NCBI GenBank assembly: GCA_022648295.1
Contig: JALCME010000023.1
Location: 19,279-83,278 of the forward strand
DNA from: Bacteroides sp.
GTDB taxonomy: Bacteria; Bacteroidota; Bacteroidia; Bacteroidales; Bacteroidaceae
DNA length: 64,000 nucleotides
Direction: 5' to 3'
Part shown: piece after piece, positions 3,395-32,432 of the stretch
Position numbering within the stretch: position 1 is the stretch's first letter
Layout of the letters: the number at the start of each line of letters is the position of its first letter
Notes under the pieces: model-generated
What the model was told of the DNA's origin: nothing
Databases searched by the model: none
The model's input: only the letters and a program-made list of their open reading frames with translations
Made by a program: the position numbers and the translations under genes

Positions 3395-4798
3395 TTATTC
3401 TTTATTTAAGAAGTCTTCCAAATCTGTTAAATTCTTAAATGTTCTACACCAATATATTTCATATACTCCATCTTCAGAGTTTGCAGCTGGGATATCCGCT
3501 ATTTTAATTTGATATGTTTTAAATTCAGTTAAGCCTGTTTTTGGCATTTTCCCATTCCAGCCTTGTGACATATCAAAATATAGGACTCTTTTCGCATCTT
3601 TTGACGTTAATTCTGTATTTGGGACATAGCCACCACTGACAGAACCGTCGGAAGCAACGGCATCCAGAGTATTTCTTCCACCTTTGGGAACTGTGCACTT
3701 TATTGCAAGAATGGGATATAAACCGGCATGGAAAGATTTTGGAGAACCATTATATTGGAAATCTCCACGCCAACTTCCGTTGCCTTGTTTCTTCATATTG
3801 ACTACCATCTTACCGTCTTCAATTTTGTATGTGGTTCCGCTTGTTGATATTTTCCATCCATTGAAACCGTCTGTAGCATCCCATTTGTACCAGCCTGCCG
3901 GAATGTTGATTGTAACTGAAGCCTGGCTACCGTTGCTTTTGCAAGTGGCTGTTATCGTGACTATCCCAAATCCTGTGGGTGTGATAACACCTTTGTCGAC
4001 CTTTGCAATATTTCCATCGCTTGAAGTCCAATCGACAGATCCCAATGTTCCATTCTCTGGAGTATAGGTTACATTGAGCGTTACGGGCTGATTCATGCAG
4101 AGAGGTTCGTCGTATGGTTGTATTGTAACACTGTTTACTGCGATGTATTCTTTAATCAGCAGATCATAGTGAGCTTTAACTCCACTATTGTCATGAGTAT
4201 AGGCTGTTATAGTTACGTTACCGGGTTTTATTCCCGAAACAAGCCCTGTCTCAGATACAGTGGCAATGGATTTATCACTGCTTTCCCAAGTCAAATAATC
4301 ATAGGTATGATTTTCTGGTAAAATATTATAGTTGAGTTGTAGCTTATCTGTTGCATAAATTTCAGTTTCTGTATTGATGAATTTTATGGTAGTTGCTTTT
4401 GTTATTTCTGGAATGACATGTACTTTGACCGATTTTATTGCATCATCGGGACCAAAGCCTATTGCTGGTGATACGGTAATGATGGCATCGCCTGCATTTA
4501 TTCCTGTTACAATTCCATCTTGGGTAACAGTAGCTATTGATTCGTCGGACGATGTCCATAGAACTTCCGGATTTGTAGGATTCTCAGGGGATATGCTATA
4601 TACCAAGGCTGAATCCATTCCTATAGCTAAGGGAAGAGTGGATGATACGTCCAATTTGATAGATGTAATCAATTGATTCTCTGATCCCGGTGTAGTAAAT
4701 ACTTTGTCTTTGTCGCAAGAAGACAAACTTAAAAGACCTATGCCTACTAAAGCATTACATATAGATAGTAATCTGTTTTTATATAAATATTGCTTCAT
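3395..4798 (-). CDS. Surface lipoprotein with Big_2 Ig-like repeats (putative surface glycan-binding protein)
   Basis: Lipobox SLSSCDK; about three repeats of WTSSDxxIATV...G.V(T/S)GI.G...IT; sits immediately downstream of susD. ORF extends to 4822; Met9 (4798) gives the signal peptide start. Confidence 0.7.
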   Translation of the reverse strand: MKQYLYKNRLLSICNALVGIGLLSLSSCDKDKVFTTPGSENQLITSIKLDVSSTLPLAIGMDSALVYSISPENPTNPEVLWTSSDESIATVTQDGIVTGINAGDAIITVSPAIGFGPDDAIKSVKVHVIPEITKATTIKFINTETEIYATDKLQLNYNILPENHTYDYLTWESSDKSIATVSETGLVSGIKPGNVTITAYTHDNSGVKAHYDLLIKEYIAVNSVTIQPYDEPLCMNQPVTLNVTYTPENGTLGSVDWTSSDGNIAKVDKGVITPTGFGIVTITATCKSNGSQASVTINIPAGWYKWDATDGFNGWKISTSGTTYKIEDGKMVVNMKKQGNGSWRGDFQYNGSPKSFHAGLYPILAIKCTVPKGGRNTLDAVASDGSVSGGYVPNTELTSKDAKRVLYFDMSQGWNGKMPKTGLTEFKTYQIKIADIPAANSEDGVYEIYWCRTFKNLTDLEDFLNKE

Positions 4799-4825
4799 AA
4801 TTACTTTTTTATTTGAAAACATAAA

Positions 4826-6541: not shown

Positions 6542-6553
6542 AATTCTCTAATA

Positions 6554-9500
6554 TTAAAAGGTTATGTCTGCTCCAAAAGTAAGAGTACGTGTGAAAGGAT
6601 AGCGTGATGTTGTAGATACTTTGCGGGTAGCTTCTGGGTCCCAACCATCGTGAATATTACTATGTTCCCATAAATCTTGCCCGGATACATACACATGTAT
6701 TTTACTTAATACGCGTGTTTTTGCCAACCAATTAGTTGGTAAAGTATAGCCTAATGTTATATTCTTTAATCTTAAATATGAACCATCTTCAACCGACCAT
6801 GACGAACTTTGATAGTTGTAATTGTTTATGGAGCTATTATTAGTATATGATGGATAATAGGCGTTGGGAGTTTCTGAACTCCATATGTTGTTTACCGACT
6901 GATTGGTAGAGTTTTGGTAAGCAGCATACATTGGGACTCTCCATGTTCCTTCTCGTAAGATGGTGCGCTTGCCAACTCCTTGAAGAACAAATGAAAAATC
7001 TATTCCTTCGAATTCAAGGCCGCCATTGAAGGAGAACTGTATTTTTGGATCATCGGTTCCTAAATATACATAATCTTCTTCGGTTAACTTGCCATCATGG
7101 TTGACATCTTCAAACATATTGTCACCTAAACGCAGACTACTGATAGAGCCTATAGTACTATTTGCTGTATCTCTCTCTTTATATTTGTCCAATTGTTCTT
7201 GAGTTTGAATCTTACCGCAATAGCGTAACCCAAAAACTGAATTTAATGGATATCCTTCACGGTTGGATACCACTCCGTTTGTCTTGGATGCATCGCCTCC
7301 ATTATCAACCAATTCATTCGTGGCGTAAGTAAAGGTTCCACCTATGTGATAGCTTACCTTATCGATTTTGTCAGTCCAGTTGATGTTGCCTTCCCAACCA
7401 TTTGCTTTGAACTTTCCTTTATTGGTTGTTGGAGCTGCATCTCCAAGAACGCCGGGATATGTAATATCAATAAGCATGTTGTTGCATTTTTTCATAAAGA
7501 GCTCAACTGTACCTGTCAGATGACTGTCTATTAGTCCGAAATCAAGTCCGATATTATAATTATGTATACGCTCCCATGTACGATCCATACTGATTAATTT
7601 ACCATTAGTCTCAATGTAAGAAGCTTTATTATTTCCAATTAAGGCTCCTGAATTGGATTTAAAGTTATAAAGTTGAATTCCGTCATACCGATCAATTCCG
7701 CTTTGATTACCTACATTTCCATAAGATAGCCTCAGTTTAAGGTCATTTATGAATTTTATGTTTTTCATAAAAGCTTCTTCAGTAATGCGCCATCCTCCGG
7801 ATACACCCCAGAATGCAGCCCAACGATTTTTTGGACGAAATTTGGAAGAACCATCGTAACGTGCCAATCCCTCAAATAGATATTTTGATTTATATGCATA
7901 ATTGAGACGTCCGTAGTAAGACATTACAGCTTCATGCCATTTTTCTGCTTTATCAATACTAATTTGTCCGGAACCATTTATGGTTTCCAAGCTGGATAGA
8001 ATATTCTTTGCCAAAGTTGAAGCATAATCATATTCTTTTAAATTGTATTGGCTTCCTATCATGACTTTGAGGTCATGATCTTCAGCAAAAGTATGATGCC
8101 AATCCATGTAGCCGGATATAGAATAAAAATCTGTTCTGGCAGAGGATTTCGTATATGAACTTTCTTCCTGCTTCGGTAAAGTTCTAACTACACGGTTACC
8201 GGCATAATTATACCAGTCAATTGCGTTTGATTGCTTGTCGCGTATTGCGGTGGATGTATTATATCCGGCTGTTACTACAGCATTCAACTCTTTAGTGAGA
8301 GCATATTTGAAAGTTTCACTAATATTGATGGCTGAAACCTTTAATTTATTGTCTCCACCAAGTTCACAATACCAATTGGGAGCTCCCCAAGTACCCCATG
8401 CATAAGGTTTTCCATTGGCTGTTGCTGAAGGAAATCCCGGTTGCTGTGTTGCAGTGGATAAAGCAGAACCTATTTGAGTCGGTGCAACTTGATCTTGACG
8501 ATTATAGGCCACAACAGATTCGATACTGAATGCATCTGTTAATTTGAATGTATTGGAGAGGCGAAAGTTATAGCGTTGATTATTATTGTTGCCCCATCTT
8601 AAATTACTGCCATCATACATGTATCCCAGAGAGAGACGATATAATGATTTGTCGGTTCCTCCAGACACACTCAATTCATGTTGGTTAGAGGATGCGGTGC
8701 CCCACATAATATTATTCCAATCTGTATCAAAAAATACGAAGTCGGCAACATCATTGAAGTTTGTTGGGATTGGATTCTGGCTATGATCTAAATCTATATA
8801 ATGCCCTTTATTTGCCAAGGCTAATTTGGCGAATTTCATCCATGTTTCACTGTCGGTATAACCATCATTGGTACGTGCTTGTATTACCGCATTAGCCCAT
8901 TGATCAAGGTTCATCTGGGTGGGGGAAAGGCCTACAAACTTGGCTGAGATTGAACCGCTGTACTCAACCCGAGTTTTTCCTTCTTTCGCTTTTTTTGTTT
9001 GCACCAATATTACTCCTCCTGCAGCTTTGCTACCATATATAGATGCTGAGGCATCTTTTAAGAAGTTGATTGACTCAATATCAGATGGATTTAATAGACG
9101 TAACTCATTTACACTTTCGTATTCTACTCCGTCAATAATAATGAGTGGGCTTGTAGAATTCTTGGAAACAGCTCCACGCAAGCTCATACTCCAACTTTCA
9201 TCTCCCGGAGCAGCAGATGATCTGGTTATGATAACTCCCGGAACCTGACCTTGCAGAGCCTGAACAGGACTTGATAATGTCCCCTTGTTTTCCATAATCT
9301 TGTCATCAACTACGGTGACCGATCCTGTCATCGTGGCCTTTTTCTGAGTGCCATACCCCACTACTACTACTTCGTCCAGAAGTTCACTGTCTTCTATCAT
9401 TGTGATTTTGAGAGAGTTCCTTCCGCTCACGGGTACTTCTTGCGTTTTATAACCTATATAGGAAATCACCAAAATACTTTTGAAAGAGGTGTTTACGGAG

Positions 9501-9742
9501 AAATTCCCATCAATGTCGGTAATTACACCGTTGTTGGTTCCTTTTACTTTAACACTTGCACCGATTATCGGTTCATTGTTATTATCTACTATTCTCCCTT
9601 TTATTGCATTATTCTGCATGACTTTATGGGATTCATATACATTTGAGAATGTAAATTGAGGACTACCCACAAGGAAAGCAAATGCAATCATTGATGAGAG
9701 AAGAGTTCTTTTTTTGATGAAAAATAGAACATCTTTCTTCAT
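6554..9742 (-). CDS. SusC/RagA family TonB-dependent transporter
   Basis: Carboxypeptidase-regulatory-like domain, DEVVVVGYGTQKK TonB box, plug and barrel; no STN domain. ORF extends to 9766; Met9 likely the start. Confidence 0.95.
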   Translation of the reverse strand: MKKDVLFFIKKRTLLSSMIAFAFLVGSPQFTFSNVYESHKVMQNNAIKGRIVDNNNEPIIGASVKVKGTNNGVITDIDGNFSVNTSFKSILVISYIGYKTQEVPVSGRNSLKITMIEDSELLDEVVVVGYGTQKKATMTGSVTVVDDKIMENKGTLSSPVQALQGQVPGVIITRSSAAPGDESWSMSLRGAVSKNSTSPLIIIDGVEYESVNELRLLNPSDIESINFLKDASASIYGSKAAGGVILVQTKKAKEGKTRVEYSGSISAKFVGLSPTQMNLDQWANAVIQARTNDGYTDSETWMKFAKLALANKGHYIDLDHSQNPIPTNFNDVADFVFFDTDWNNIMWGTASSNQHELSVSGGTDKSLYRLSLGYMYDGSNLRWGNNNNQRYNFRLSNTFKLTDAFSIESVVAYNRQDQVAPTQIGSALSTATQQPGFPSATANGKPYAWGTWGAPNWYCELGGDNKLKVSAINISETFKYALTKELNAVVTAGYNTSTAIRDKQSNAIDWYNYAGNRVVRTLPKQEESSYTKSSARTDFYSISGYMDWHHTFAEDHDLKVMIGSQYNLKEYDYASTLAKNILSSLETINGSGQISIDKAEKWHEAVMSYYGRLNYAYKSKYLFEGLARYDGSSKFRPKNRWAAFWGVSGGWRITEEAFMKNIKFINDLKLRLSYGNVGNQSGIDRYDGIQLYNFKSNSGALIGNNKASYIETNGKLISMDRTWERIHNYNIGLDFGLIDSHLTGTVELFMKKCNNMLIDITYPGVLGDAAPTTNKGKFKANGWEGNINWTDKIDKVSYHIGGTFTYATNELVDNGGDASKTNGVVSNREGYPLNSVFGLRYCGKIQTQEQLDKYKERDTANSTIGSISSLRLGDNMFEDVNHDGKLTEEDYVYLGTDDPKIQFSFNGGLEFEGIDFSFVLQGVGKRTILREGTWRVPMYAAYQNSTNQSVNNIWSSETPNAYYPSYTNNSSINNYNYQSSSWSVEDGSYLRLKNITLGYTLPTNWLAKTRVLSKIHVYVSGQDLWEHSNIHDGWDPEATRKVSTTSRYPFTRTLTFGADITF

Positions 9743-9809
9743 AAAATTACAATTTAAAATTAACATAATCTCTTTGTTGTCAAATTAGGATAAATATTTA
9801 GAGATAGTG

Positions 9810-10325
9810 CTATATGCACTTTTTGATATATTCACGTACTTCCTTTCGGCTGATAAATAAATGATTTTCGACTGTACGTTGCGAAAGATTTAGCGATGTA
9901 GCAATTTCTGATGATGTCTTGTTACCGAAACGGCTCATTGCATAAATTTTATGTCGTTGTGCAGGGAGTATGCTTAGTTTTCGCTTTTCAAGCATTAATA
10001 AGTCTTTTGCAATAATTTCGCTCTCTACATTATTCGTGTATTTTTCTGTACGATCATACAAATACGACGTTACTTCTTGCACTTTGTAATAATGGCGCAA
10101 GTAATCATTTACTAAATTACGGGCTATAGTGAAAATGAAAAAACGCACGGTGTCCTTGCGTAACATCTGTTTGTAGTCTATTAATCGAAGAAAGACGTCT
10201 TGCGTCAAGTCTTTAGCTTCCTCTTCCTTACTTATCTTATAATAGATATAGCGATAAATAGAATTGCGATATTCACAGTAAGAATCAGCTATTATTTGAG
10301 TGGATTTGATGAAGTTGTTTTCCAT
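9810..10325 (-). CDS. ECF-type RNA polymerase sigma-70 factor
   Basis: DLTQDVFLRL region 2 and SLNLSQRTVENHLFISRKEVREYIKK region 4; paralog of 31879-32394. ORF runs to 10358 but Met12 (10325) is conserved in the paralog (MENN). Confidence 0.88.
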   Translation of the reverse strand: MENNFIKSTQIIADSYCEYRNSIYRYIYYKISKEEEAKDLTQDVFLRLIDYKQMLRKDTVRFFIFTIARNLVNDYLRHYYKVQEVTSYLYDRTEKYTNNVESEIIAKDLLMLEKRKLSILPAQRHKIYAMSRFGNKTSSEIATSLNLSQRTVENHLFISRKEVREYIKKCI

Positions 10326-10355
10326 ATCGTTGTTTTTTATGGTATTTTCTGAAAG

Positions 10356-10363
10356 CAAATATA
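10356..10363 (-). promoter_or_regulatory. Candidate -7 box (TATATTTG) of the ECF sigma gene
   Basis: TAnnTTTG on the minus strand, 31 nt upstream of Met at 10325. Confidence 0.5.
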
Positions 10364-10404
10364 GAAATGATAGTGCGGAATATTTCTCAAATGAATCCTA
10401 AATG

Positions 10405-10418
10405 AATCTCATCTCATT
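10405..10418 (-). promoter_or_regulatory. Candidate activator site AATGAGATGAGATT (copy 1)
   Basis: Identical 14-mer at 18348-18361; both lie 42 bp from a TAnnTTTG box. Confidence 0.5.
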
Positions 10419-10533
10419 TGCATAGAATAGTATTATCATAATATTCTGATATATAATAATATACGATAATATATTTTGGATTTCATATAATAATTTGAGA
10501 CTATATTGAACGTTTTATTCTGCTTAAAGAAGT

Positions 10534-10570
10534 AATGCCTGTAAAATCACGTTTCGATTTTGCAGGCATT
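10534..10570 (-). terminator. Hairpin terminator after the 10601-18194 operon
   Basis: AATGCCTGTAAAATC / GATTTTGCAGGCATT, 15-bp arms with one G-T pair. Confidence 0.65.
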
Positions 10571-10600
10571 ATAATGTATTACAGTCCTATATTCAGAAAG

Positions 10601-11725
10601 CTAATTTGCGGGTCTGCCGCTTACTTTTATCTCCGAAAGGCTAGCGAATGGCTCTCTGTAACTTTCGGTTATCACGCACTTTAGAAATTTAGCATTTAGT
10701 GGATCTTTAAGTGCCAGAGTTAGGCCATTTGGGGATGCCGTCTTTTGATATTCAAGTGTACCAACCAAATTGAAACTTTCTCCATCAGCACTAAGATATA
10801 TTTCAACTTTCTTACAGTCTGTATTATCTTTACGTTTATATATACTTACTTCGGTTATTACATATTCTTTTTTCATATCGACTAAAACCCAGTGGGGAAG
10901 TGGTTCATTTGGACTCCAGCTACTGTGCCAGTATGTGTCGAAATTATTATCGAGAACTACTTGTGCCTTTCCACCGTCATTCTTATGCGTTGCATCGCTT
11001 GATGCTGTGGCTATCCAATCGGAACGATCCAATACAAATCCCGATGGTAAAGTCATAGTATACGGGGTAAGTGTTTCGAAGACGTCAATGCTATTTTCTA
11101 CAGGACGATAAAGCGTTGTATAACTGATTTGGCTCCCTAACTGTGCATCGTGCAAAGTCGTTTCCATTTCATCGGCGACGACAAAGTAAGTGACTTGCTC
11201 TCCTCTCTTATTGGTGTAATGAAGGTTTACGCCTACGCAATTATCCATACTATTCCACTTAATAATGAGATTCGTATCGTCCAAAGCTTCTATGCTGGAA
11301 ACTTTACGTTCTCCGAGATTAGATATATAAGTTGAACCGTAAATAGTCTGGGACTTTTCTGTTTTCAATGAAGAATTTCCATACATATCTCTTGTGTAGG
11401 CCGTAAAAACGAGACTTTCCTCCGGTAGGTTAGGTATTATAGTTTTCATCCACTGTTCTCCGGCCTTTTCAATAGGCACTACTATAGAATCTCCTTTTCC
11501 CCATTTTATGACACAATCCTTCAATTTAGGGTCTGCATCCAGTTTCCATCTAACTTCCGCCCTGCAATTGCCTGGAAGAATAGTAAGAGAATCGGCAATC
11601 CCGATGTATATCTGTTCACCCTGATCCAGATATTTTTGATAAATCTCTGACATATCGCCGCATGAAGTTCCGGCAATAGTTGCAAATAGAGCCAACCCCC
11701 AACCTATTATTTTATTTGTTTTCAT
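10601..11725 (-). CDS. DUF4998-like lipoprotein with C-terminal F5/8 type C (discoidin) domain
   Basis: Lipobox GTSCGD; N-terminal domain, then ATHKNDGGKAQVVLDNNFDTYWHSSW...LPHWVLVDM discoidin signature. Confidence 0.7.
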   Translation of the reverse strand: MKTNKIIGWGLALFATIAGTSCGDMSEIYQKYLDQGEQIYIGIADSLTILPGNCRAEVRWKLDADPKLKDCVIKWGKGDSIVVPIEKAGEQWMKTIIPNLPEESLVFTAYTRDMYGNSSLKTEKSQTIYGSTYISNLGERKVSSIEALDDTNLIIKWNSMDNCVGVNLHYTNKRGEQVTYFVVADEMETTLHDAQLGSQISYTTLYRPVENSIDVFETLTPYTMTLPSGFVLDRSDWIATASSDATHKNDGGKAQVVLDNNFDTYWHSSWSPNEPLPHWVLVDMKKEYVITEVSIYKRKDNTDCKKVEIYLSADGESFNLVGTLEYQKTASPNGLTLALKDPLNAKFLKCVITESYREPFASLSEIKVSGRPAN

Positions 11726-11750
11726 ATTTATGCCAATTTATTATTTCTAT

Positions 11751-12989
11751 TCATTTGTCGTCTGTAATCTTTCCATAAAAGGCCAGCTCATTACAGTTAA
11801 ACAGATCACCACCACCCCATGTTTCATCAATGGTGAAGCGTATGTAACGCATAGCAGGGAGATCTTCAGAGAAGATGAAGTCATGTCCTAAATAAGCATA
11901 TTCCTTATCAAGCTCAGTTACATTCGGATTGTCAAATCCGGAAGGTTTTTCCGTACGGCAAGTCATCAATAGCGTCCAATTTTCAGTATCATTCCGAAAT
12001 CCTTCTTTCCAATATTCCTGATCATCAATTGTATGTTTAGAATAAATCAGATCTGGGGCTTCTGCACGACCATACACCCTCCAACGCTTGGGATTGTTCT
12101 GTGTATAGGGCCAGCCTCCTCCACGCTGCCAAAGCATATAACGCGTCAATTCCACTTTATGTCCTAAATCAATGGTAAAGTATACTCCATGACCGGAACC
12201 GTTAGTACGTACATGCCATCCATTATTATCTACGCCAGTGACGTCATCGAACATTTTTCCCCAAGCCCAATTTCCTCCAAGCTCAGTGTTATTATCTTCG
12301 GTCAACAATATTCTCTTATATCCGGCTTTAGGAATTAGTTGTTCAAAGCGAGGAGTAAATACACCGGAAACCGTATCCGAATAATTATCCCAACGGTCTT
12401 TCACTATTGCGGCAAAACGACGTTCTTTATCGTCAAATCCGCGTAAACTGAAAGTACCCACAGCAGCATCACTTGCCAATACTTCAACTAATTGCAATTG
12501 ACCTTCATCATCAGCGGCATAAAGTTGTAAGTTTATAATCGTATTCAATTGATTTTTCCATTGAATATCAATACCGCCTATACCACGATTCAGTTTTATT
12601 GACCTGCTGATTGCATAAACCGGATTCTCTTCGGGTTTAATCACGACAGTAACCGGTTCTGAATAATTGTTACTGCGATCTACACTATAAAGCTGTACGC
12701 TATGTTCATTTTCATCTCCGAAACCTCCAATTATAAGCTTCGATTCATAACAGGAAGCTTTGACATTACGCACGACTCCTTTTTGTTCATAACGAGCCTC
12801 TACAAATAATAAATCTTCATCAAGAGGTAAGTCATAGGACAGCTGTGCACCTCCAGGAATATTCTTTATCACTACATTTTCCACCTTGTCCGGGGATTTG
12901 CTGTCGGTAGGTACCTGTCCCACTCTATCTTCACCACAAGACTGTAACAGACCTGCAAATAACAGCAGACAAAATATATTTTTTATCAT
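11751..12989 (-). CDS. DUF4959/DUF5000-like surface lipoprotein with discoidin-like C-terminus
   Basis: Met65 of the ORF (MIKNIFCLLLFAGLLQSCGEDR) gives a clear lipoprotein signal; the upstream 64 codons overlap susD and are unlikely to be translated. Confidence 0.7.
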   Translation of the reverse strand: MIKNIFCLLLFAGLLQSCGEDRVGQVPTDSKSPDKVENVVIKNIPGGAQLSYDLPLDEDLLFVEARYEQKGVVRNVKASCYESKLIIGGFGDENEHSVQLYSVDRSNNYSEPVTVVIKPEENPVYAISRSIKLNRGIGGIDIQWKNQLNTIINLQLYAADDEGQLQLVEVLASDAAVGTFSLRGFDDKERRFAAIVKDRWDNYSDTVSGVFTPRFEQLIPKAGYKRILLTEDNNTELGGNWAWGKMFDDVTGVDNNGWHVRTNGSGHGVYFTIDLGHKVELTRYMLWQRGGGWPYTQNNPKRWRVYGRAEAPDLIYSKHTIDDQEYWKEGFRNDTENWTLLMTCRTEKPSGFDNPNVTELDKEYAYLGHDFIFSEDLPAMRYIRFTIDETWGGGDLFNCNELAFYGKITDDK

Positions 12990-13033
12990 AGCATTTATTT
13001 TTTTAATTGTTATTCTATATATATCTTCCAATA

Positions 13034-14962
13034 TCACCATCCGGGATTTTGTATCAAATTGGCATTTTGATCCAAGGAAGATTGTTTGATCGGCCATAGG
13101 TAATTCTTTCTGCCAAAAGAGGTATTCAATACTGTACGGATCTGATAGTAATCCTCTGGACTCAGTCCATTGACATTCCATCCTCTGAAAGGTTGGTTAA
13201 CATACTGTTCTAGAGTCTTCCAACGACGCATATCCCAAAAGCGTTGTCCTTCAAACGCCAATTCTATTAAACGTTCACGATGGATTATATCCAGCAAACC
13301 GGTTTTATTTTTAGGTTTATCAGGATTAGTGGAATATTGTTCCCAGCTCTCTATTACACCCTTCAGCGATGCTCTTTCACGTATGGCGTCAATATAAGCA
13401 TATACCTCTGGATTTACGTCTTCTGAATATTCTGTTAGTGTTTCAGCATACAACAAGTAAAGATCTGCTAAACGAATGATAGGTAAATGATAAGTAGCTG
13501 TACTGAAGCTTTGAGGACTACTGAAAGCAGATTCCCAATGCACAAGTTTAACGGGGAAATATCCGGTCAAAGAGTAGCATTCCGAGCTGCGCTTGCCTCC
13601 ATACTCCGTGTAACGTGCCTTTATGTAATGTGGTATATTTTCAGTGTTAGTGGCCACATCGTTTAGGATCCCTGCACCGTAGAGGATACTGCGGTCAAAG
13701 GCGATAGAGGCATAAAAGCGAACTTCACGATCGAAATTTACACCGGCGGTTTTCTCTCCTTCCTTTATATAAAAACGATCTTCACTGGTTGCTTGTCTTA
13801 TTTTATACCTACTTGCATAATCGTACAATTTGTCTTCGTTGATAGGCACGCCGTGATTAGAATAAAACTCTTCAACGACATTCAAAGGGATGGCCATCTC
13901 TGAGCTGATAGTATTAGAAAACTGACTGCTAACCGATGGCATGGCCGACCTTTGTATGTGATCTGCTTTAGAAGCAGCCCCCCAAATTATTTCCTGGTTG
14001 TAATTATCGGTTACGGATCCACGGACATCCATCTTTTTAACGGTAGAATCATTCAGATTACGCAAGTTTACAAATTTATAAAGTTTATGCCCATTGGATT
14101 CTGCCGACTGGATTGCTTCCAGAGTTGCATCTGCCGCACGTTTCCATTTTTCTTTGTCATATTCTTGAGGAAAAAGTTTCATGCCACGGTTGTCAGTCAG
14201 GTCTTTATAATCTGCATTACCGTTAAACAAAGGACTAGCGGCCAATGTCAGCACTTTAGCCTTTACTGCAAGGGCGATAGGCTTTGTAATGCGTCCCATT
14301 TCATTCAATTGGTTATCAATCACTTCTGGCAGATCTACTGTCGCCGCATCCAGTTCAGAAACAATGTAATTTACAACGTCGTCTACCGGATCACGATATA
14401 CTCTTACCTTTTCAGGATCAGCATCCACCGGAAGATTTTTGTCGGTTATAGGTATTGGACCATACATCTGGAAAAGCCAGTAATGGTAGTAAGCTTTCAA
14501 GAACCGCACTTCCGCAATCCAACGTTTCTTTTCACTTTCCGTCAAATCAATTGGTTTATCAACATTCTCAAGAAAAATATTGCAATTACGTATACCTATA
14601 AAAAGGTTTTTCCCATTTCTTGATCCGTCCCAATAATTATTATAGGGGTCGTTAGAGTTTTGCTGTCCTGCCAATATACGATAAGCAGGAACTACGATAT
14701 CCGACCAATCGGAAGCATGCCATAGATAACCGGAATTCAAACAGACAGCTTCGCCACCGGCAAAAAAAGCGGGATTACTGGTATCATCCTCATGCCCAGG
14801 TAGTGAACTATAACAAGTAAAAAGGAAACTCTCCGCATTAGTTCTGTCTGCAAAGATATGATCGAGGGTTGGTGTATTATCAGGCACTACATCCAAATAA
14901 TCCGAACAGGAGCATAATGTTATAACTCCTATAACATATATTATATTTTTTAATTTCATCAT
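13034..14962 (-). CDS. SusD/RagB family lipoprotein
   Basis: Lipobox TLCSCSDYLD, FLKAYYHYWLFQMYGPIPI, RFWDMRRWK, C-terminal LIQNPGW. Confidence 0.95.
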   Translation of the reverse strand: MMKLKNIIYVIGVITLCSCSDYLDVVPDNTPTLDHIFADRTNAESFLFTCYSSLPGHEDDTSNPAFFAGGEAVCLNSGYLWHASDWSDIVVPAYRILAGQQNSNDPYNNYWDGSRNGKNLFIGIRNCNIFLENVDKPIDLTESEKKRWIAEVRFLKAYYHYWLFQMYGPIPITDKNLPVDADPEKVRVYRDPVDDVVNYIVSELDAATVDLPEVIDNQLNEMGRITKPIALAVKAKVLTLAASPLFNGNADYKDLTDNRGMKLFPQEYDKEKWKRAADATLEAIQSAESNGHKLYKFVNLRNLNDSTVKKMDVRGSVTDNYNQEIIWGAASKADHIQRSAMPSVSSQFSNTISSEMAIPLNVVEEFYSNHGVPINEDKLYDYASRYKIRQATSEDRFYIKEGEKTAGVNFDREVRFYASIAFDRSILYGAGILNDVATNTENIPHYIKARYTEYGGKRSSECYSLTGYFPVKLVHWESAFSSPQSFSTATYHLPIIRLADLYLLYAETLTEYSEDVNPEVYAYIDAIRERASLKGVIESWEQYSTNPDKPKNKTGLLDIIHRERLIELAFEGQRFWDMRRWKTLEQYVNQPFRGWNVNGLSPEDYYQIRTVLNTSFGRKNYLWPIKQSSLDQNANLIQNPGW

Positions 14963-18504: not shown

Positions 18505-21500
18505 TTACAGTTGTTGCACATACTGCTTGGGACTCATTTGCATTTTGCGTTTAAATGCTTCGCGAAATGTCTTGATGTCATTGAATCCACATTTCAGACT
18601 TACGGAACTGATGTTGTTTTCGCCTTCCTTGAAATATTGAACGGCTTTAAATATCCGATATTCATTGATAAACTCGATGACGGACATTCCTGTAATGGCT
18701 TTTACTTTCTTATAAAGTGCAGAATGGCTCATACCCATTTTCTCAGCAAAGTAGATGATATCAAATTCTCGGTTAGTGAGATTGTCATCTATAATCTCCT
18801 TGCATTTAAGCAAGAAGCGCTGCTCTTCTTTGGTGTAATTTTTTTCTTTTTTCGACATGAGGTCTGTTGCATCTGCCGATTCCGAGCGAAGTAACAGGTT
18901 ATTTATGCGGTTTCTAAGATATTTTATTGATACGGGCTTAGTCAGATAAGCATCGGCTCCATAGTCGAAAGCAATGATTTTATCTTCTTCTGAAATTTTG
19001 GCTGTCAACATGATAATGGGAATATGAGATATTTTCTTGTCTCCTTTTACCAAGGATAGAAAGTCCGTTCCACTCATCTTTGGCATCATAATATCACAAA
19101 TTATAATATCTGGTAGATGTTCTTGTGTTAGGGCGAATCCATCAACACCGTTATAGGCTTTTAAAATTTTAAAATCATTGATTAAGGTTCTTTCTAACAG
19201 TTCTACAATTTCCGGTTCATCGTCTATAATAAGGATCGTGTGCGTGGCTGCTGGTGACGGCGTGGAGGCAGCCCTATCTTTCGCTAATAACTCTTTATTG
19301 ATTATAGTAGGAGAGGGTATAATGATATTGGACTCTTCTGTTGAGACTGGAATATTAAAGATGAATTTAGATCCTATATTTGGTTTGCTTTCTACCGTGA
19401 CGCACCCTCCGTGAAGCTCTACCAGATATTTCACAAATGAGAGTCCTATTCCGTCTCCTGTAGAATTGGTCTGCAATGGATTTACCTGAAAGAAACTGTC
19501 AAATATTGCTTCATGGTATTCTTCGTTTATTCCAATGCCATTATCCTTTACTGTGAATTGCACGAAATTATCTGTTTCGTCAATGGATAATACAATCTTT
19601 CCTCCTTCGGGAGTATATTTGAAGGCGTTGGATATTAGATTGGACAATATCGTTTCCATCTTTTCCGGATCAAAGTCCAGCTGGATGATTGTTTTAGAAG
19701 GAAGAAAGTGAAAAATGATATTTTTTTGTTGGCATAGTGCTTCATAGTCATCAATCAGACTTTTACAGAAAGTGACTGCGTTAAGACGTTGCTTTTCCAA
19801 CTGTAGCTTTCCGGCTTCCAGCTTGCGAAAATCTATTATCCGATCTATCAACTTATTCAGCTTTATAGCATTGCGATACATGGTAGACAAGTATGACTTT
19901 TGTACTTGTATAACTTTTCTTCCTGATGACAGCAATTCTTCGATGGGAGCGGTGATAAGAAATATGGGGGTACGCAGTTCGTGTGTGATATTGGTATAGA
20001 AGCTCAGCTTTGCTTCATTTATGCTTTTGGCCGTATTTTTTTCTATCTCTTTCAGCTGTACCATGTGCTTGATATTCAGCTCATGGCGATAGAACCAGAA
20101 TATCAATGCGATAAATCCGACACAAAGCATGCTCCGCAGGAAAATGGCCCCGTTTGTTTTCCACCATGGAGGTGTGATAATAATATGCAGGCATGAAACT
20201 TGTTCACTCCATTTCCCGTTACTGTCCGATGCCCGTACATAAAAATAATATTCTCCTGGGGGAACATTCGTATAAGAGCGTTGTCTGTCATGTGATACTT
20301 CCTGCCACTCACCTTCAAAGTTTTTCATGTAACAGGAGAAGTTAACCTTTTCCGGTGCAGTTAGTTCGGACACTGCAAAATGAATGGTGAAGAAGTTTTG
20401 ATTATACGGAAGATAGACCGTTTCTGGTTTCTCACCATATAAATGGACACTTTTCCCCTTTTCGTTCAGAATATCAAGATTCGTAAAATATACGTAGTCA
20501 AAATATTGTTTGTATTTTATCTTTCCCGGGTTGAAGTAAACGAGCCCGTTTGTACTTCCAAAATACATTATGCTGTCTTTTTGGAAGGATGCGTTATAGT
20601 TGAACTGCACGGACGACAGATCATCTTCTTTTCCGAATTTAATGAAAGTTTCTGTTGACGGGTCATAACGGAATAGTCCGTTATAAGTTCCCAGCCATAG
20701 ACAGCCTGAACTGTCTTCTTGCATGCAGGTCACGTTTGTATCCGTCAGTCCGTTATTAATTCCGAATGAGGTTATTTTGCCTGTCTGCTCGTTAAGTCTG
20801 TAAAAACCAGAGTATTCGGCGGAAAACCATATTTGATGTTTGGAGTCAACGAACAGATAACGGATGGCATTGCTTGCTAGAGGATTGTTGAGAGATTCAG
20901 TGGAATAATGTTTGGCTATTCTATTGGTACTCGAATTTATTTTGTATAGTCCGTTTCGGACAGAACTGATCCATATCTGATTATCTTCAAAAACAACTGT
21001 AGAGGCGTAAGTGTGATTAAGGCTTTTTATTTCGGAGAATGTTTTCTCCTTTTTATTGAATATATAAATATTTTCACCAATTAACCATATATTCCCTTTA
21101 TTATCATCTTTTATTTCCCAAAGGTAATTTGGATTCGTATTGCTGTCATTTACTGATAAAGAATAAGTTTTAAATGTTCTGTCTGAAGGAGAAAACCGGC
21201 ATAGTCCCTTGCCATATATTCCGAGCCATATATATTTATCGTCTCCTATTACCGAAAGTACATTGTTTCCCGGGATATTGCTGTTTCTGGTGGTAAGGGA
21301 CGACACACCCCCTGTTTCTGTATCATAGACATTAATCCCTCCTCCGTCAAGACCTATGTATAATTTTTTGTCACGTGGTAAAATTGCTGTCACAATGTTA
21401 TGGGTTAGTTGTCCGTTTTTCATTGTGAGTGTACTGAACCAATCATAATGGGTGGAATGGAGATTAACTCCACCTCTGTAGGTCCCTGCCCAAAGATTCT

Positions 21501-22413
21501 TCTCTCTGTCCACAAATAGGGAGTGAATCGCATCATTGCTGATATTACTGTTATTTGGAGTAAAGCGTTCCGTTTTTGAGGCAGATATACTAATAAGACC
21601 ACTACCATCTGTGCCAAATATTGTTTTGTCTTGGTAATCAACAATTGCTTTTACATCCGAAGGAGCATCTGTCTTTATTTTTTTTGTCTGATATTTCGTG
21701 TCAATTCTGAAAGCTTTGCATGCATATCCAATTCCAAGTCCTACATACACAATATCTCTGGTTTTACTATAATACATACATATATTGTTTCCCCTTACCT
21801 CATTTTTAATATGGCAGGAGCTGACAATGGAACCTTTTAAGGGGTTAAGTAAATATAATGCTTTTGCAGTATAAGCCAATAGTAGTCCGTTTTTATATTT
21901 ACATATTGCAAGGAAAGGTAATTCATACATATATGCTTTAAACCTTAAATTGCCTTTCCACACAAATAGCTTGGAAGTACTGTCTAGAATATAGATGTTT
22001 TTATCATTTTTTACGATTCCTCTCACGGCTTTATTCATGATCATTTTCTTCTCTGTCGGAGAAAAATACTCGGTCGAATAGAAACAATTTTCCTTATATG
22101 AATAGAAGTTTAGCCCTTTTTCGGTTCCCACCCACATTCCATTTTCAACAGGCAAGATGTTTTCTACGTGATTGTTGGTTATGGATAAACTGTCTGCATC
22201 GTTATGTCGGAAAGTGGTGAAGTTGACCCCGTCAAATCTGCATAGTCCGTCGAATGTACCAAACCAAACAAAGCCTTGCTTGTCCTGTGAGATACATTTC
22301 ACCGTGTTGTTGCATAGCCCGTCTGAAACATCAAAAACTTTAAAGTGTTTTGCATGAATAAAAAGGGGAGCAGTCAGTATTAAAAGAATAAGAATGTATA
22401 TCTTGCTTTTCAT
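18505..22413 (-). CDS. Hybrid two-component system regulator (HTCS): beta-propeller sensor, Y_Y_Y, HisKA, HATPase_c, REC, AraC HTH
   Basis: Reg_prop repeats (GLWLGTYNGLFRYD), ITHELRTPIFLI, DNGIGI, GDGIGLSFVKYL, IICDIMMPKMSG, AraC C-terminus GFNDIKTFREAFKRKMQMSPKQY. Confidence 0.96.
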   Translation of the reverse strand: MKSKIYILILLILTAPLFIHAKHFKVFDVSDGLCNNTVKCISQDKQGFVWFGTFDGLCRFDGVNFTTFRHNDADSLSITNNHVENILPVENGMWVGTEKGLNFYSYKENCFYSTEYFSPTEKKMIMNKAVRGIVKNDKNIYILDSTSKLFVWKGNLRFKAYMYELPFLAICKYKNGLLLAYTAKALYLLNPLKGSIVSSCHIKNEVRGNNICMYYSKTRDIVYVGLGIGYACKAFRIDTKYQTKKIKTDAPSDVKAIVDYQDKTIFGTDGSGLISISASKTERFTPNNSNISNDAIHSLFVDREKNLWAGTYRGGVNLHSTHYDWFSTLTMKNGQLTHNIVTAILPRDKKLYIGLDGGGINVYDTETGGVSSLTTRNSNIPGNNVLSVIGDDKYIWLGIYGKGLCRFSPSDRTFKTYSLSVNDSNTNPNYLWEIKDDNKGNIWLIGENIYIFNKKEKTFSEIKSLNHTYASTVVFEDNQIWISSVRNGLYKINSSTNRIAKHYSTESLNNPLASNAIRYLFVDSKHQIWFSAEYSGFYRLNEQTGKITSFGINNGLTDTNVTCMQEDSSGCLWLGTYNGLFRYDPSTETFIKFGKEDDLSSVQFNYNASFQKDSIMYFGSTNGLVYFNPGKIKYKQYFDYVYFTNLDILNEKGKSVHLYGEKPETVYLPYNQNFFTIHFAVSELTAPEKVNFSCYMKNFEGEWQEVSHDRQRSYTNVPPGEYYFYVRASDSNGKWSEQVSCLHIIITPPWWKTNGAIFLRSMLCVGFIALIFWFYRHELNIKHMVQLKEIEKNTAKSINEAKLSFYTNITHELRTPIFLITAPIEELLSSGRKVIQVQKSYLSTMYRNAIKLNKLIDRIIDFRKLEAGKLQLEKQRLNAVTFCKSLIDDYEALCQQKNIIFHFLPSKTIIQLDFDPEKMETILSNLISNAFKYTPEGGKIVLSIDETDNFVQFTVKDNGIGINEEYHEAIFDSFFQVNPLQTNSTGDGIGLSFVKYLVELHGGCVTVESKPNIGSKFIFNIPVSTEESNIIIPSPTIINKELLAKDRAASTPSPAATHTILIIDDEPEIVELLERTLINDFKILKAYNGVDGFALTQEHLPDIIICDIMMPKMSGTDFLSLVKGDKKISHIPIIMLTAKISEEDKIIAFDYGADAYLTKPVSIKYLRNRINNLLLRSESADATDLMSKKEKNYTKEEQRFLLKCKEIIDDNLTNREFDIIYFAEKMGMSHSALYKKVKAITGMSVIEFINEYRIFKAVQYFKEGENNISSVSLKCGFNDIKTFREAFKRKMQMSPKQYVQQL

Positions 22414-22552: not shown

Positions 22553-22576
22553 CTTCTTAATATGTCTATTAAGAAG
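22553..22576 (-). terminator. Hairpin terminator
   Basis: CTTCTTAATA / TATTAAGAAG with 4-nt loop, just 3' of the fucosidase remnant. Confidence 0.5.
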
Positions 22577-22600: not shown

Positions 22601-23028
22601 CTATTGAATTCTTAGCACAAATGATATTTCGTTGGGTTTATAATTCTCTGGGAGTTTGACAAATAGACCGTCTTTTGCTCTATGATATTCTAATTCTTTT
22701 TCACAACCGAGCATTTCCACTTTGTTTACTTTAGCGCCATACCATGGGCTGTTGTCTTTTAATGATTTAATCTGTATTTCATGTCTGACAGGCCACCCTA
22801 GTACATGTACATAAAGTGTATCTCCTTTGATGACGAATCTCATGTCTTCTGAAGAAAATGACTTCCTCTTTTTCATCTATTGAACCATTCCGGTGCTTGT
22901 TGGTATTGAGACAGAGACTCCCATGTGGGCTGGTATTTCCCTTTCATCATATTTTCATGGGGTGATTGGCATGATAACAATGTGCATGAAATGATCAGTA
23001 TTGTGAATGTCTCTTTTGCCTTCATCAT
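22601..23028 (-). pseudogene. Internally deleted GH29 alpha-L-fucosidase remnant (N-terminal ~51 aa plus C-terminal ~91 aa)
   Basis: Frame 1 (23028-22873): MMKAKETFTILIISCTLLSCQSPHENMMKGKYQPTWESLSQYQQAPEWFNR*; frame 2 (22876-22601): KKRKSFSSEDMRFVIKGDTLYVHVLGWP...VNKVEMLGCEKELEYHRAKDGLFVKLPENYKPNEISFVLRI. These resemble GH29 N- and C-termini, with the whole catalytic core missing. Confidence 0.75.
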
Positions 23029-23038
23029 TTATGTTCTC

Positions 23039-26224
<3,186 letters not shown>

Positions 26225-26428: not shown

Positions 26429-28489
26429 CTAATTTTCAGCCGATTGATCAGCCACTAACGGCCAATACGGATTCTGATAGATTACAGAGGTGGACAAGTC
26501 TGTAGAGTTTGTAGCAGTTAGTTGGAAATGTTTAATGGCAATAGGTTCCAAATAATAAGCCATCATCCAAGTTGATCCATTATATCCGTTTTGCCCTGCA
26601 TATCTTTCATATGGGCGAAGATATTCACTCCTTTCTTTTGATGATACATTGGCATTGTTGGTATTGTTTGCTACGAGGTTGGTATACCATTTTTCCATAG
26701 GAGTGTTCCATAGATGGAAACCTTCAATGTGATAGGGTGTGGCTTTAAGTTGATCTAATGCTCTCCAGCGATGCAAATCCATATTTCTTAATCCTTCTGC
26801 TATATATTCACAACGCCGTTCGCGCCGTATATTATATAATGTAGCGTCAATTAAGGTTCCTGCAGAATAAGCTCCCCAGTCATTTTCAGCTTCTTTACTC
26901 ATATTAGTCAGGCTGATTGTCTTGTTGTAATCGGGATCTATATTGGCTCGTTTCCTTAAAATTCTCCAATATTCATCTGCATATGAATCTATCGTCCCAT
27001 TTTTCTCATAACTGGCCTCCATGTAATTCAACAAAGCTTCCGCCGCCCGGAAACATACAGCAGCGGTATATCCGGTGCCATTTCCATAGTGTTTTCTGTT
27101 GAATGAACCTCCTTTGTGTAGTGCATAGCCTGTTGCATAACCGCGTTCTCCGTCACCTAATGTGATAGATGGATATGGTTCTACGAAAACGACTTCCGTA
27201 CCTTCAGTGTTATCCAATTCCTCATAAACGTTTTGTTGCCCAGGTACTTTTAGGAATATGCCTAAACGTGAATCACGGTTTTCACGGACATTGGTTATAG
27301 TCTTGTCTCCTTGATAATATCCATCTCCGTCAGCATATGTTCCGTGTGTATATACCGGTGTGCCATCTGCCATCAAAAATGAGTTAACAAAACCGCGAGT
27401 TAGCCCAATTCTATAGTTACCACGTCCTGCTGCAGAATTTACGTTATGGGTTACTTTGCTTCTCGCATATTGTCTCCATAGCAAAACTTCTTTTACACTG
27501 GATAAGTCTTCTTCTGCAAACATATTATAATAGGGATTGTTGGTATCCATCTTTATAACGGGTGTCGTGCCATAATATCCAGAACTCTCATTAACGCCAG
27601 TATTTTCAGCGAGAAAGTTCTTATAGCTTTCGGCAATCTGTTTGGATGCATCCATTGCTTGTCCCAAGAAATAATCGATTTCATTATCTATGCTACCACT
27701 GGGATATTGGTAATTGGAATTGTAATCTTTTGTTGCTCCTGCCCAGTCCGTCCCATTGGGTACAAATGCAGTCCCTTTAAAGTATTTTAACCAGGTTCCT
27801 TCATAAAGAGCAACTCGTGATTTGAATAATAAAGCGAGGGCTTTGTTAATTCGAGTCGTTGCCATGTCCTCTGCAGACATCAACGTGATAGCTTTGTCCA
27901 GATCTTCAATAATGAAACGGGCAACTTCGTTACGGGGACTCCGCTTACTTGCTTCAATGAGTTCTTCTGAATTATCAGAAAGAGGTTCTGTTATTATGGG
28001 AAAGTCTCCGAATGCTTGAAGCTTATTAAAATATTCATAGGCTCTGAGAAAGTACATTTCTCCAATGTAATGTTGTACATCGGCTAGAGATCCGCTTATC
28101 GTATTGGCAGATCCGCTTATGTCATCACCATACTTGGAAAATACTTGGGAGAAGAAATAATTGTAGGCATATATATTGCCAAAGCTCCAATTGCCACCGG
28201 ATTGTCCTACTTTCCAAAGGTCCGATGTATATTTGCTATCTATGGATACGCCTGCTTGATTGTCTGTATTATTATCGTTGCCATAAATACCGTAACTCCA
28301 ATTTCCATGAGACGGAAGATTTCCGTAGTATTTATTTACATAATTTTCCAATTGAGACGCGCTGCTCAAATATTGTTCAGGCAATATATTTGACATTGGT
28401 TCTTTATCAAGAAAGTCTTCGCATGAAGTGAATATCAATCCTATAATGAATATAGACTTATATATTAAATTGAATTTATTAGATTTCAT
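26429..28489 (-). CDS. SusD/RagB family lipoprotein
   Basis: Lipobox FTSCEDFLDKEP, FLRAYEYFNKLQAFGDFPII, NMDLHRWRALDQL. Confidence 0.95.
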   Translation of the reverse strand: MKSNKFNLIYKSIFIIGLIFTSCEDFLDKEPMSNILPEQYLSSASQLENYVNKYYGNLPSHGNWSYGIYGNDNNTDNQAGVSIDSKYTSDLWKVGQSGGNWSFGNIYAYNYFFSQVFSKYGDDISGSANTISGSLADVQHYIGEMYFLRAYEYFNKLQAFGDFPIITEPLSDNSEELIEASKRSPRNEVARFIIEDLDKAITLMSAEDMATTRINKALALLFKSRVALYEGTWLKYFKGTAFVPNGTDWAGATKDYNSNYQYPSGSIDNEIDYFLGQAMDASKQIAESYKNFLAENTGVNESSGYYGTTPVIKMDTNNPYYNMFAEEDLSSVKEVLLWRQYARSKVTHNVNSAAGRGNYRIGLTRGFVNSFLMADGTPVYTHGTYADGDGYYQGDKTITNVRENRDSRLGIFLKVPGQQNVYEELDNTEGTEVVFVEPYPSITLGDGERGYATGYALHKGGSFNRKHYGNGTGYTAAVCFRAAEALLNYMEASYEKNGTIDSYADEYWRILRKRANIDPDYNKTISLTNMSKEAENDWGAYSAGTLIDATLYNIRRERRCEYIAEGLRNMDLHRWRALDQLKATPYHIEGFHLWNTPMEKWYTNLVANNTNNANVSSKERSEYLRPYERYAGQNGYNGSTWMMAYYLEPIAIKHFQLTATNSTDLSTSVIYQNPYWPLVADQSAEN

Positions 28490-28512: not shown

Positions 28513-31500
28513 TTAAAGTGTAAGACTGAGTCCGAAAGAGAAAGTCTTTTGCAGGGGATAAGAGTTTCCGGTTCCCTTAATCCAAGAAGATTGAGAGCTG
28601 TCAGTACTACCTCCATCAATAGTTTCAGGATCAAATAGTTTGGTAAGTTTTGTTCCTGTCCAAAGATTCTCTCCGGAGAAGAATATCCGGCATTTGGAGA
28701 TAGAAAATTTCCGAGTGAATGACTGAGGTAGTGTATATCCCAATTGTATGTTTTTTAATCTGATATACGCAGCATTTAAAAGATAACGGGTCTGAACCTG
28801 CTGATTCTGCGTAGCGTGTGCAAAGTTGGGGCGTGGATAATATGAATCTAAATTGGCCTCAAGTTCATGTCCTTCCACTCCTATTGCTTCTGCCCTGAAA
28901 TAATCTTCGTGTTGTTTGTAAGCAGTGGACATCCATTGATTCTGGACAACTCCCCAGAACATATTTCCCGAAGACCAGAAATCTCTTTTCATTACGCCCT
29001 GAAAGAAAGCTCTAAAATCGAATCCTTTCCAATCTGCCGTAAGGTCAATGCCGAATTGATAGCGGGGAGTGCTATTGCCTATTACCCGTTTGTCTCCTGG
29101 GTCATCTAATGTTCCAGCACCTGCTGTAACTCCATCTTTGCCATTTAAATCAGCATACATGATATCGCCGGCTCCCCATTCGGAACCAAAAGGCTGTCCG
29201 CCAACTTTTGTCAGGTGTGCATCCATTTCCTCTTGTGTTTTTGCGATTCCTACTGTTTGATATCCCCATATTTCATTAAGTTTTTTGCCCGGATAATATG
29301 TAGATATAGAATTGGTTGAGTTACTTGGATAGCTTTCTACTGTGCTTTGGGCATCGGATACGACCATCTTTACTCCATAGCCTAACCCATTTCTAAGACG
29401 ATCGTTCCATGATATTTGCAGCTCCCATCCTTGGGTTTTCATATCACAGTTGTTTGTAGCCGGAGCACTTACACCCAATGTCGCCGGTAATTCGGGAGCC
29501 GGTCCAACCATATTGTCTGTGTAGCGTGTATAGATATCGAATGAGCCTGTTAACCGGTTATTAAAAGCTCCCCAGTCCAAACCTAAGTTCCACGTTCTGA
29601 CAGTTTCCCATGTAAGAGAGGTGCTAATCAGATCGCTAACGGAAGCAGTATTAGTGTATGTTCCGTCTTGTAACCATGTTCCCGATGCAGAACCTATATT
29701 CATGGTTCTGTATGTCGGATACCAGGAGCTTGTATTTTGATTGCCTAATTTCCCATAAGAAGCTCTTAGCTTTAATAAATTGATTGTTTTTTCTATGGGC
29801 TTCCAAAAATCTTCTTGAGCAATATTCCATCCTAAAGAGAATGAAGGAGAAGTAGTCCAGCGATTTCCTCTACGGAAACGAGAACTTCCGTCATATCGTA
29901 AATTTGCTTCTGCCAAATATTTTCCTTTGTAATCATAGTTGATCCGTCCGAAGAAACCTGCACTTGACCATTCATTTCTGTATCCAGATGCTTCGTCGAT
30001 TAACGTGCTTCCTGTACCATCTGTACTCGAAGTCAAGTCTAATTCGGTTAAATCATTGGACAATAGGCCGTAGGCCTTTGCGCCAAAGTCGGATTGCTTC
30101 ATCTCTTCCGATTGAAAACCTGCCATTACTTTAAAGTTGTGGGCTTCATTGAATGAGCGTGAATATTCTGAGTACACATTAATATTCATGTAGTTTTCTT
30201 TCTTGTGCTCTTGGTATAAGCTACTTGTTCCTTTGGTATCAACGACATTTCCGGCTACATCATGATTATAAGTGGGTAAACTAACTTGTCGGTTATCATA
30301 AGAATAGGTGCTGTAGTTAAATTCAAAATGTGTTTTCCAATTTTTTATTGGTTCCATGATAAGTGCACCTTGATGGTAATATTGGTCGGTTTGGGTATTT
30401 GTTTTCCCTCCTTCCACTAACCCTAAAGCTGGGGTTGGGCTACTGTATAAATAACCGTTCTCGTCATATACAGGTAAATTAGGCCAGCTTTGACGACCGA
30501 TGTTCAAATATAGACCATCTCCAAAAGAGGTTGGCTTCCAGTAATCGGTTCTTATGAAACGGGTGCTATAGCTAAATTCCAGCCAAGATGTTATTTCTGA
30601 ATTAATTTTAGCTGATATATTGTAACGTTTCAAGTCGTCATCTCCATAATTCAGCAGACCACCTTGATCTAAATATCCTAAAGATGCATAGTATGATGTT
30701 TTCTCATTTCCTCCATTAAAGCTGAGGTTGTGTTCTTGAGAAAATTTGGTTCCTCCATACAACTCATGAAGCCAATCTACATTGGCATAGGCATTGGTAT
30801 AAGGGTCTGCTGCCGGTTTTCCCCAATATACTCCGTCGGTGGGTAATCCTCCTGTGTTACCTTTCCCGGCAGCTTGAAAATCTAGCATCTTTTGCATGAC
30901 ATTATCTGAAAATATAACTCCCCACCCTGCATTTATTGATGCTGAATTGAAGTAGTTTGCAAAATCATAGGAATTCATGGAGTGTGCTAGATTCATTGGA
31001 CTACTGAAGCGGAAGCTATTATTGTAGTTAATAGATGTCTTTCCGGCATGTCCTTTTTTAGTTGTCACTAAAACAACTCCAAATGGAGCACGGGAGCCAT
31101 ATATGGAAGATGCTGAAGCATCCTTTAAAACAGATATGTTTTCAATATCTTGTGGATTTATAGTATTCAGATCACCTTCCATTCCATCAATTAGAATAAG
31201 AGGGCTACCGCTGGAACCTGTGCCGATTGTTCCTTCTCCACGAATATTGATACTCATTGATTTATTAAGTTCACCATTGTTTGTTGTGATTTGCATTCCC
31301 GGTACTATTCCCTGCAGAGCTTGTACTGCATTCGCTACAGGGCGTGATTCAATATCTTTTGTAGTTGCTATACCTACAGAACCTGTTAGATTTATTTTCT
31401 TTTGCGTACCGAAACCTACCACTACTACTTCATCAAGCATTTCGGAATCTTCAATGAGGGTTACTTTAATGAAATTTTTACCATTTAAACTGACCTCTTG

Positions 31501-31800
31501 AGGTTTGTATCCTACATAAGAAATTAGGAAAATGCTTTTGTTAGATGCACTCAATGAGAAATTTCCATTGATATCAGAAATTACTCCTGTTTGTCCTCCT
31601 TTTATTTGTACACTTGCCCCAATAATAGGTTCTCCATTGACATCAACTATTTGGCCTTTTACAACGTTAGTTTGCATAATCGTTTGTTTTTCTTCAGAAT
31701 TGCCATAGACGACTTGTGGGCTACCATATATAAAGATAGACGCCACCATCATAGAGAAGTAAAATTCTCTTGATAGAAATTTTAAAGGATTGTTTTTCAT
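28513..31800 (-). CDS. SusC/RagA family TonB-dependent transporter
   Basis: CarboxypepD_reg, DEVVVVGFGTQKKINLTGSVG, plug and barrel; no STN. ORF extends to 31833; Met12 likely the start. Confidence 0.95.
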   Translation of the reverse strand: MKNNPLKFLSREFYFSMMVASIFIYGSPQVVYGNSEEKQTIMQTNVVKGQIVDVNGEPIIGASVQIKGGQTGVISDINGNFSLSASNKSIFLISYVGYKPQEVSLNGKNFIKVTLIEDSEMLDEVVVVGFGTQKKINLTGSVGIATTKDIESRPVANAVQALQGIVPGMQITTNNGELNKSMSINIRGEGTIGTGSSGSPLILIDGMEGDLNTINPQDIENISVLKDASASSIYGSRAPFGVVLVTTKKGHAGKTSINYNNSFRFSSPMNLAHSMNSYDFANYFNSASINAGWGVIFSDNVMQKMLDFQAAGKGNTGGLPTDGVYWGKPAADPYTNAYANVDWLHELYGGTKFSQEHNLSFNGGNEKTSYYASLGYLDQGGLLNYGDDDLKRYNISAKINSEITSWLEFSYSTRFIRTDYWKPTSFGDGLYLNIGRQSWPNLPVYDENGYLYSSPTPALGLVEGGKTNTQTDQYYHQGALIMEPIKNWKTHFEFNYSTYSYDNRQVSLPTYNHDVAGNVVDTKGTSSLYQEHKKENYMNINVYSEYSRSFNEAHNFKVMAGFQSEEMKQSDFGAKAYGLLSNDLTELDLTSSTDGTGSTLIDEASGYRNEWSSAGFFGRINYDYKGKYLAEANLRYDGSSRFRRGNRWTTSPSFSLGWNIAQEDFWKPIEKTINLLKLRASYGKLGNQNTSSWYPTYRTMNIGSASGTWLQDGTYTNTASVSDLISTSLTWETVRTWNLGLDWGAFNNRLTGSFDIYTRYTDNMVGPAPELPATLGVSAPATNNCDMKTQGWELQISWNDRLRNGLGYGVKMVVSDAQSTVESYPSNSTNSISTYYPGKKLNEIWGYQTVGIAKTQEEMDAHLTKVGGQPFGSEWGAGDIMYADLNGKDGVTAGAGTLDDPGDKRVIGNSTPRYQFGIDLTADWKGFDFRAFFQGVMKRDFWSSGNMFWGVVQNQWMSTAYKQHEDYFRAEAIGVEGHELEANLDSYYPRPNFAHATQNQQVQTRYLLNAAYIRLKNIQLGYTLPQSFTRKFSISKCRIFFSGENLWTGTKLTKLFDPETIDGGSTDSSQSSWIKGTGNSYPLQKTFSFGLSLTL

Positions 31801-31878
31801 AAACTTAATAATTAGAATTGGTTTAACACACAATTATTTATAAGGGGAATATCTTATGTTTTGTCTATAACTTTAGGC

Positions 31879-32394
31879 TTAAATGCATCGCTTTATGTAT
31901 CTGCGTATTTCTTTCCTGCTCATGCACAAATGGTTTTCAATTGTTCGTGGTGAAAGGAAAAGAGCAGCAGAAATTTCTGAAATTGTTTTTTCTTCATATC
32001 TACTCATTATATATACTTTTCTACGTTGTGAGGGAATTGTTTTTAGTATATTCTTTTCTAATGTTAACAAGTCTTTGGCAATAAGTTCGCTTTCCACGTT
32101 ATCAGTGAAGTTCGTAGTACAGTCATATATATATGAGGTGATTTCTATCTTTTTATAGTGCCGACGTAAATAATCTGTCACCAAATTGCGGGTAATGCTG
32201 AAGATAAAGAATTTGATTGTATCGGATTTTAACATTAATTTGTATTCCATAAGGCGTAGGAATACATCTTGGGTAAGGTCTTTTGCATCTTCTTCTTTCT
32301 TTATTTTTTGTAAGATATGGAAGAATATGCAGTAATGGTAGCTTTGATAAACGCTAGCTATCGACTTAGATTTTGTATACGAATTATTTTCCAT
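31879..32394 (-). CDS. ECF-type RNA polymerase sigma-70 factor
   Basis: DLTQDVFLRLMEYKLML; LFLSPRTIENHLCMSRKEIRRYIKRCI; close paralog of 9810-10325. ORF runs to 32427, Met12 conserved. Confidence 0.87.
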   Translation of the reverse strand: MENNSYTKSKSIASVYQSYHYCIFFHILQKIKKEEDAKDLTQDVFLRLMEYKLMLKSDTIKFFIFSITRNLVTDYLRRHYKKIEITSYIYDCTTNFTDNVESELIAKDLLTLEKNILKTIPSQRRKVYIMSRYEEKTISEISAALFLSPRTIENHLCMSRKEIRRYIKRCI

Positions 32395-32424
32395 ACTATT
32401 AAACTTTGCGGTTGATCTGTAGCT

Positions 32425-32432
32425 CAAAAGTA
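32425..32432 (-). promoter_or_regulatory. Candidate -7 box (TACTTTTG) of the ECF sigma gene
   Basis: TAnnTTTG, 31 nt upstream of Met at 32394, same geometry as 10356-10363. Confidence 0.5.

Follow-up and report, generated by a model that had tools for sequence, protein, structure and literature searches.

At the end of a SusC-SusD-GH2 unit on the minus strand of this Bacteroides contig, directly downstream of the intact GH2 gene, lies a segment (23028-22601) whose reading frames are short and which still looks like a glycosidase gene. The question is whether a gene of family GH29 has been lost here, and how. The first-pass annotation of the window (the whole stretch of 64,000 nt analysed) had read the segment as an alpha-L-fucosidase cut to its two ends by an internal deletion. 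Our analysis indicates that the segment is very probably what remains, as a pseudogene, of a gene for an exported GH29 glycosidase (alpha-L-fucosidase family) that closed a SusC-SusD-GH2-GH29 operon and lost its barrel via two deletions.

Locus Organization

The unit is arranged in the order sigma factor-SusC-SusD-GH2-GH29 remnant, all on the minus strand (Table 1). The segment had been described as lying between a hybrid two-component system (HTCS) and an intact GH2; its adjacency to GH2 stands, but the HTCS opens a separate unit, which contains another SusC-SusD. The SusC-SusD-GH2 unit ends with the GH29 remnant, and the HTCS beyond it belongs to the next one. The perfect hairpin behind the stop codon of the remnant is likely the end of the SusC-SusD-GH2-GH29 transcript; it carries no U-run and was not called in the terminator scan. 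Because the GH29 gene is the last in the operon, the genes upstream are untouched by its loss.

Two sigma-70-like regulators (9810-10358 and 31879-32427) stand each immediately ahead of a SusC gene, one of them checked against Pfam and the other assigned by eye only. In the downstream unit, ORFs 11751-13181 and 13034-14962 share about 150 bp, and the start codon of the first was probably set too early.

Table 1. Features of the GH29 remnant and of the genes around it in the window.
Feature	Position	Strand	Remarks
HTCS, first gene of next unit	18505..22413	-	
Perfect 10-bp hairpin after stop of GH29 remnant	22553..22576	-	z -4.45
3' end of GH29 gene, Fucosidase_C beta-sandwich domain, open to natural stop	22601..22861	-	PF16757; conserved columns 15/20
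91-aa ORF	22601..22876	-	ATG overlaps TGA of N-terminal piece (ATGA), within out-of-frame island sequence
Junction 2, GTCATTTT	22855..22862	-	middle side V-I-(L), C-terminal side S-F-; deletion ~143 nt (140-146)
Island GSIDEKEEVI, ~30 bp, from end of catalytic region, third frame	22857..22886	-	profile HMM E 0.0009
5' end of GH29 gene, lipoprotein signal (lipobox LLSC) and GH29 N-terminus KYQPTWESLSQYQQAPEWF	22881..23028	-	conserved columns 11/12
Junction 1, AATGGTTCA	22881..22889	-	EWF(+A) in N-terminal frame, NGS in island frame; deletion ~1040 nt (1022-1058)
GH2 beta-galactosidase (Bga2A type), intact	23039..26200	-	10 bp upstream of GH29 remnant
SusD, intact, same unit as GH2-GH29 remnant	26429..28489	-	
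SusC, intact, same unit as GH2-GH29 remnant	28513..31833	-	

Surviving Pieces of the GH29 Gene

As previously read, a frame opens at 23028 and runs to a stop at 22873; it translates as MMKAKETFTILIISCTLLSC, the lipoprotein signal, followed by QSPHENMMKGKYQPTWESLSQYQQAPEWFNR. The N-terminal motif KF.PTWESL..Y..PEWF is retained in this piece at 11 of 12 conserved positions. Its match to PF01120 (13.9 bits) is below the cut-off of 25.2 because the piece is too short, with about the first 26 of the 345 profile positions matched. The 91-aa ORF, taken before for the C-terminal beta-sandwich of GH29, matches Pfam Fucosidase_C (PF16757) above the cut-off of 25.6 (E 3.6e-10, 40.7 bits). Both end pieces match the same full-length GH29 proteins, among them L025, L027, L028, L031, L006, and L002 (phmmer, ORFs of fetched loci), and in the alignment they fall at opposite ends of these proteins, with the barrel missing between them. 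The reading of a GH29 gene reduced to its two ends, the catalytic domain absent, is borne out by these matches.

A third piece, the island GSIDEKEEVI, corresponds to a GH29 motif located where the barrel ends, and the same motif is present in the intact relatives read. It emerged when the three frames of the segment were searched with a profile of 31 intact relatives. Against the position-specific GH29 profile the island scores 26.4 bits. None of the 77,990 decapeptides that the remainder of the window yields in its six frames comes up to this score; their maximum is 19.5. The three pieces are in correct gene order and each is in a different frame; with these frames and the stop at 22873 the parent reading frame is destroyed, as in a pseudogene. 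The 91-aa ORF begins with MKKRK, five residues that come from reading the island in the wrong frame and are not GH29 sequence; the start codon of this ORF is therefore an accident.

Two Deletions and Their Junctions

A single deletion with a junction at about 22873-22880 had been proposed. The frames instead read as two frameshifting deletions, with two junctions on either side of the island. Since the spacing of motifs is constant in intact relatives, the sizes of the deletions can be read off: from EWF to GxhDxKE there are 339-351 codons in relatives with readable motifs, and from GxhDxKE to FNEG 43 codons wherever FNEG is readable. By arithmetic from the frame offsets, the first deletion is 3n-1 nt with n = 341-353, and the range given for the second depends on the point where the tail resumes; both leave a remainder of 2 on division by 3, which is what the frames demand. 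Deletions of about 1.04 kb and 0.14 kb account for the loss of the whole barrel and of the linker that leads to the C-terminal domain, about 1.18 kb in all out of a gene of about 1.64 kb. About 347 codons are missing, and with the PF01120 catalytic barrel and its active-site residues absent there is no active GH29 enzyme. What is left over is the 5' end, the island of about 30 bp, and the 3' domain in three frames, from which presumably no enzyme is made.

At the first junction, 8-10 bases are compatible with both parents, and both readings agree with those of intact genes at the respective sites. This overlap is echoed in relatives as similar codons, TGGTTC at the N-terminal site of L025, L028, and L048, and GATGGTTCG at the internal site of L125. 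At the second junction, agreement with the island side extends through GTCATTTT (V-I-L) and agreement with the tail side is certain from TTT onward, so that the two have a minimum of 4 and perhaps as many as 10 bases in common. The overlaps suggest that the deletions may have arisen by slippage between short direct repeats (8-10 bp for the first deletion, 4-10 bp for the second), or possibly by end-joining between them. As no intact ortholog was found at the same locus, we infer the ancestral sequence and the precise repeats from the present-day overlaps, which fit both parents. In bacterial genomes, short direct repeats (<30 bp) at the base of variable segments, with replication slippage between them, have been described as a source of such segments (PMC2884548). 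A single junction with the six-base repeat TTCAAT (FN in EWFN and in GFNEG) was also considered and rejected, as the frames do not fit it and the island in the third frame explains the junction better.

The same pseudogene could have had another history, namely one complex event with template switching and a short templated island in place of two successive deletions. The two junctions are just about 20-30 bp apart, which would favour such an event, but short direct repeats can explain each of them separately, and the island is collinear with the gene. We consider a single complex event possible, though rather unlikely.

Search for an Intact Counterpart

No close intact relative of the gene was found in 160 genomes of the genus, about 400 of the family, and about 390 of the order. 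The search recovered no intact copy of this GH29 lineage, the best tail identity being 50%: the closest tail within the genus shares 49% identity, that from the family's other genera 46%, and one from a different family of the same order 50%. In the neighbourhoods of the closest SusD, GH2, and HTCS relatives (genus, one genome per species), no intact GH29 stands beside the orthologous genes, and relatives of the SusC-SusD pair at 58-69% identity adjoin other enzymes. The comparison with related genomes that the first-pass annotation had proposed thus yielded no intact gene at the same locus among the neighbourhoods in the genus. A scan of genome contigs with the tail gave distant relatives only, a plasmid search with the locus DNA gave no match, and a literature search for described loss of GH29 in polysaccharide utilization loci (PULs) returned nothing relevant. 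Locus L100 of another species (G088:C146:20001-40000, 4317-13946) carries orthologs of SusD, SusC (68%), and HTCS (59%) in a row with the HTCS first; in the window, the HTCS orthologous to that of L100 is beyond GH2 and the GH29 remnant, on the far side.

The assembly, 92% complete, consists of 42 contigs; under a collapse or misjoin, the organism would have an intact gene whose middle the assembler dropped. Words of 4-10 bp are too short for assemblers to merge on. The two separate junctions share only about 4-10 bp, far below the words that assemblers join, and the missing middle is on no other contig: a search of the same 92%-complete assembly with an intact GH29 gave the two remnant pieces and separate full genes only. 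As the junction words are too short for merging and the middle is absent elsewhere in the assembly, and with the frames of both ends and of the island still readable, we regard an assembly error as very improbable.

Age of the Loss and Fate of the Tail

In its domain tree the tail has the longest branch (1.12, the next being 0.57), and because the support is weak (50), the tree gives no date. The tail has no stops and keeps 15 of 20 conserved positions, which is within the range of divergent intact genes. Probably the parent was already divergent and the loss is not old; its description as recent is plausible.

That the pieces still function, the ATGA stop/start overlap coupling translation of a free 91-aa beta-sandwich to that of a short lipopeptide, is hardly credible: the tail does have an open frame of 91 codons with its conserved positions, but the ATG and first five codons belong to the island read out of frame, an export signal is lacking in the tail whereas the parent was an exported protein, no conserved relatives were found for the arrangement of N-terminal piece and tail, and the branch is the longest in the tree. 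Equally hard to accept is that a free Fucosidase_C domain has been retained, with coupled translation, to bind carbohydrate or act as a regulator within the cell.

Remaining Fucosidase Genes and Substrate

Loss of the fucose-removing capacity of this PUL had been proposed. Loss of the enzyme is supported at this locus, and it is confined to this one locus, since the genome retains three other full-length-looking GH29 genes and four genes of family GH95; general loss is not supported. Among the other GH29 proteins, one of 570 aa shares 59% identity with an intact relative of the remnant. One of the GH95 family genes (G000:C23:14749-15942) is found on this contig about 3.3 kb outside the window's left edge, and the GH28 gene at 423-1823 is close to it. 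The nearest solved structures to the tail include both alpha-L-fucosidases and exo-alpha-L-galactosidases, and the sugar of the lost enzyme, fucose or L-galactose, is therefore uncertain.

Significance and Comparison with Known Systems

The segment is a real pseudogene; its structure of two deletions is unusual but explicable, and in kind it is ordinary gene decay. A PUL can lose its terminal enzyme without harm to the preceding genes. A short Fucosidase_C ORF in an annotation may be the stub of a dead gene and is not to be counted as a fucosidase.

GH29 follows GH2 directly also elsewhere in the genus, intact in G156 (L116) and G120 (L119) and split in G048 (L117). These pairs resemble the one studied in having GH29 directly behind GH2 on the same strand, but their GH2 is only about 31-33% identical to that of the window, so they represent a different locus. 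The GH29 relative of L117 (G048:C111:5000-24900, 9003-10629) is split by frame changes into three pieces, and the GH29 relatives in L040 and L007 (genomes G047 and G136) are split in the same way into two; all these could be further pseudogenes or sequencing errors of draft genomes.

In comparison with GH29 alpha-L-fucosidases (PF01120 and PF16757), the remnant has the N-terminal motif, the GSIDEKEEVI-type motif, and the C-terminal domain in the same order, with the tail at most 50% identical; unlike them, it has no catalytic domain, is in three frames, and cannot make an enzyme. From bacterial pseudogenes due to deletion between short repeats it differs in having two adjacent events with a small island between them and an inferred ancestor, while the common words of about 4-10 bp at the junctions and the shifted frames are alike in both.
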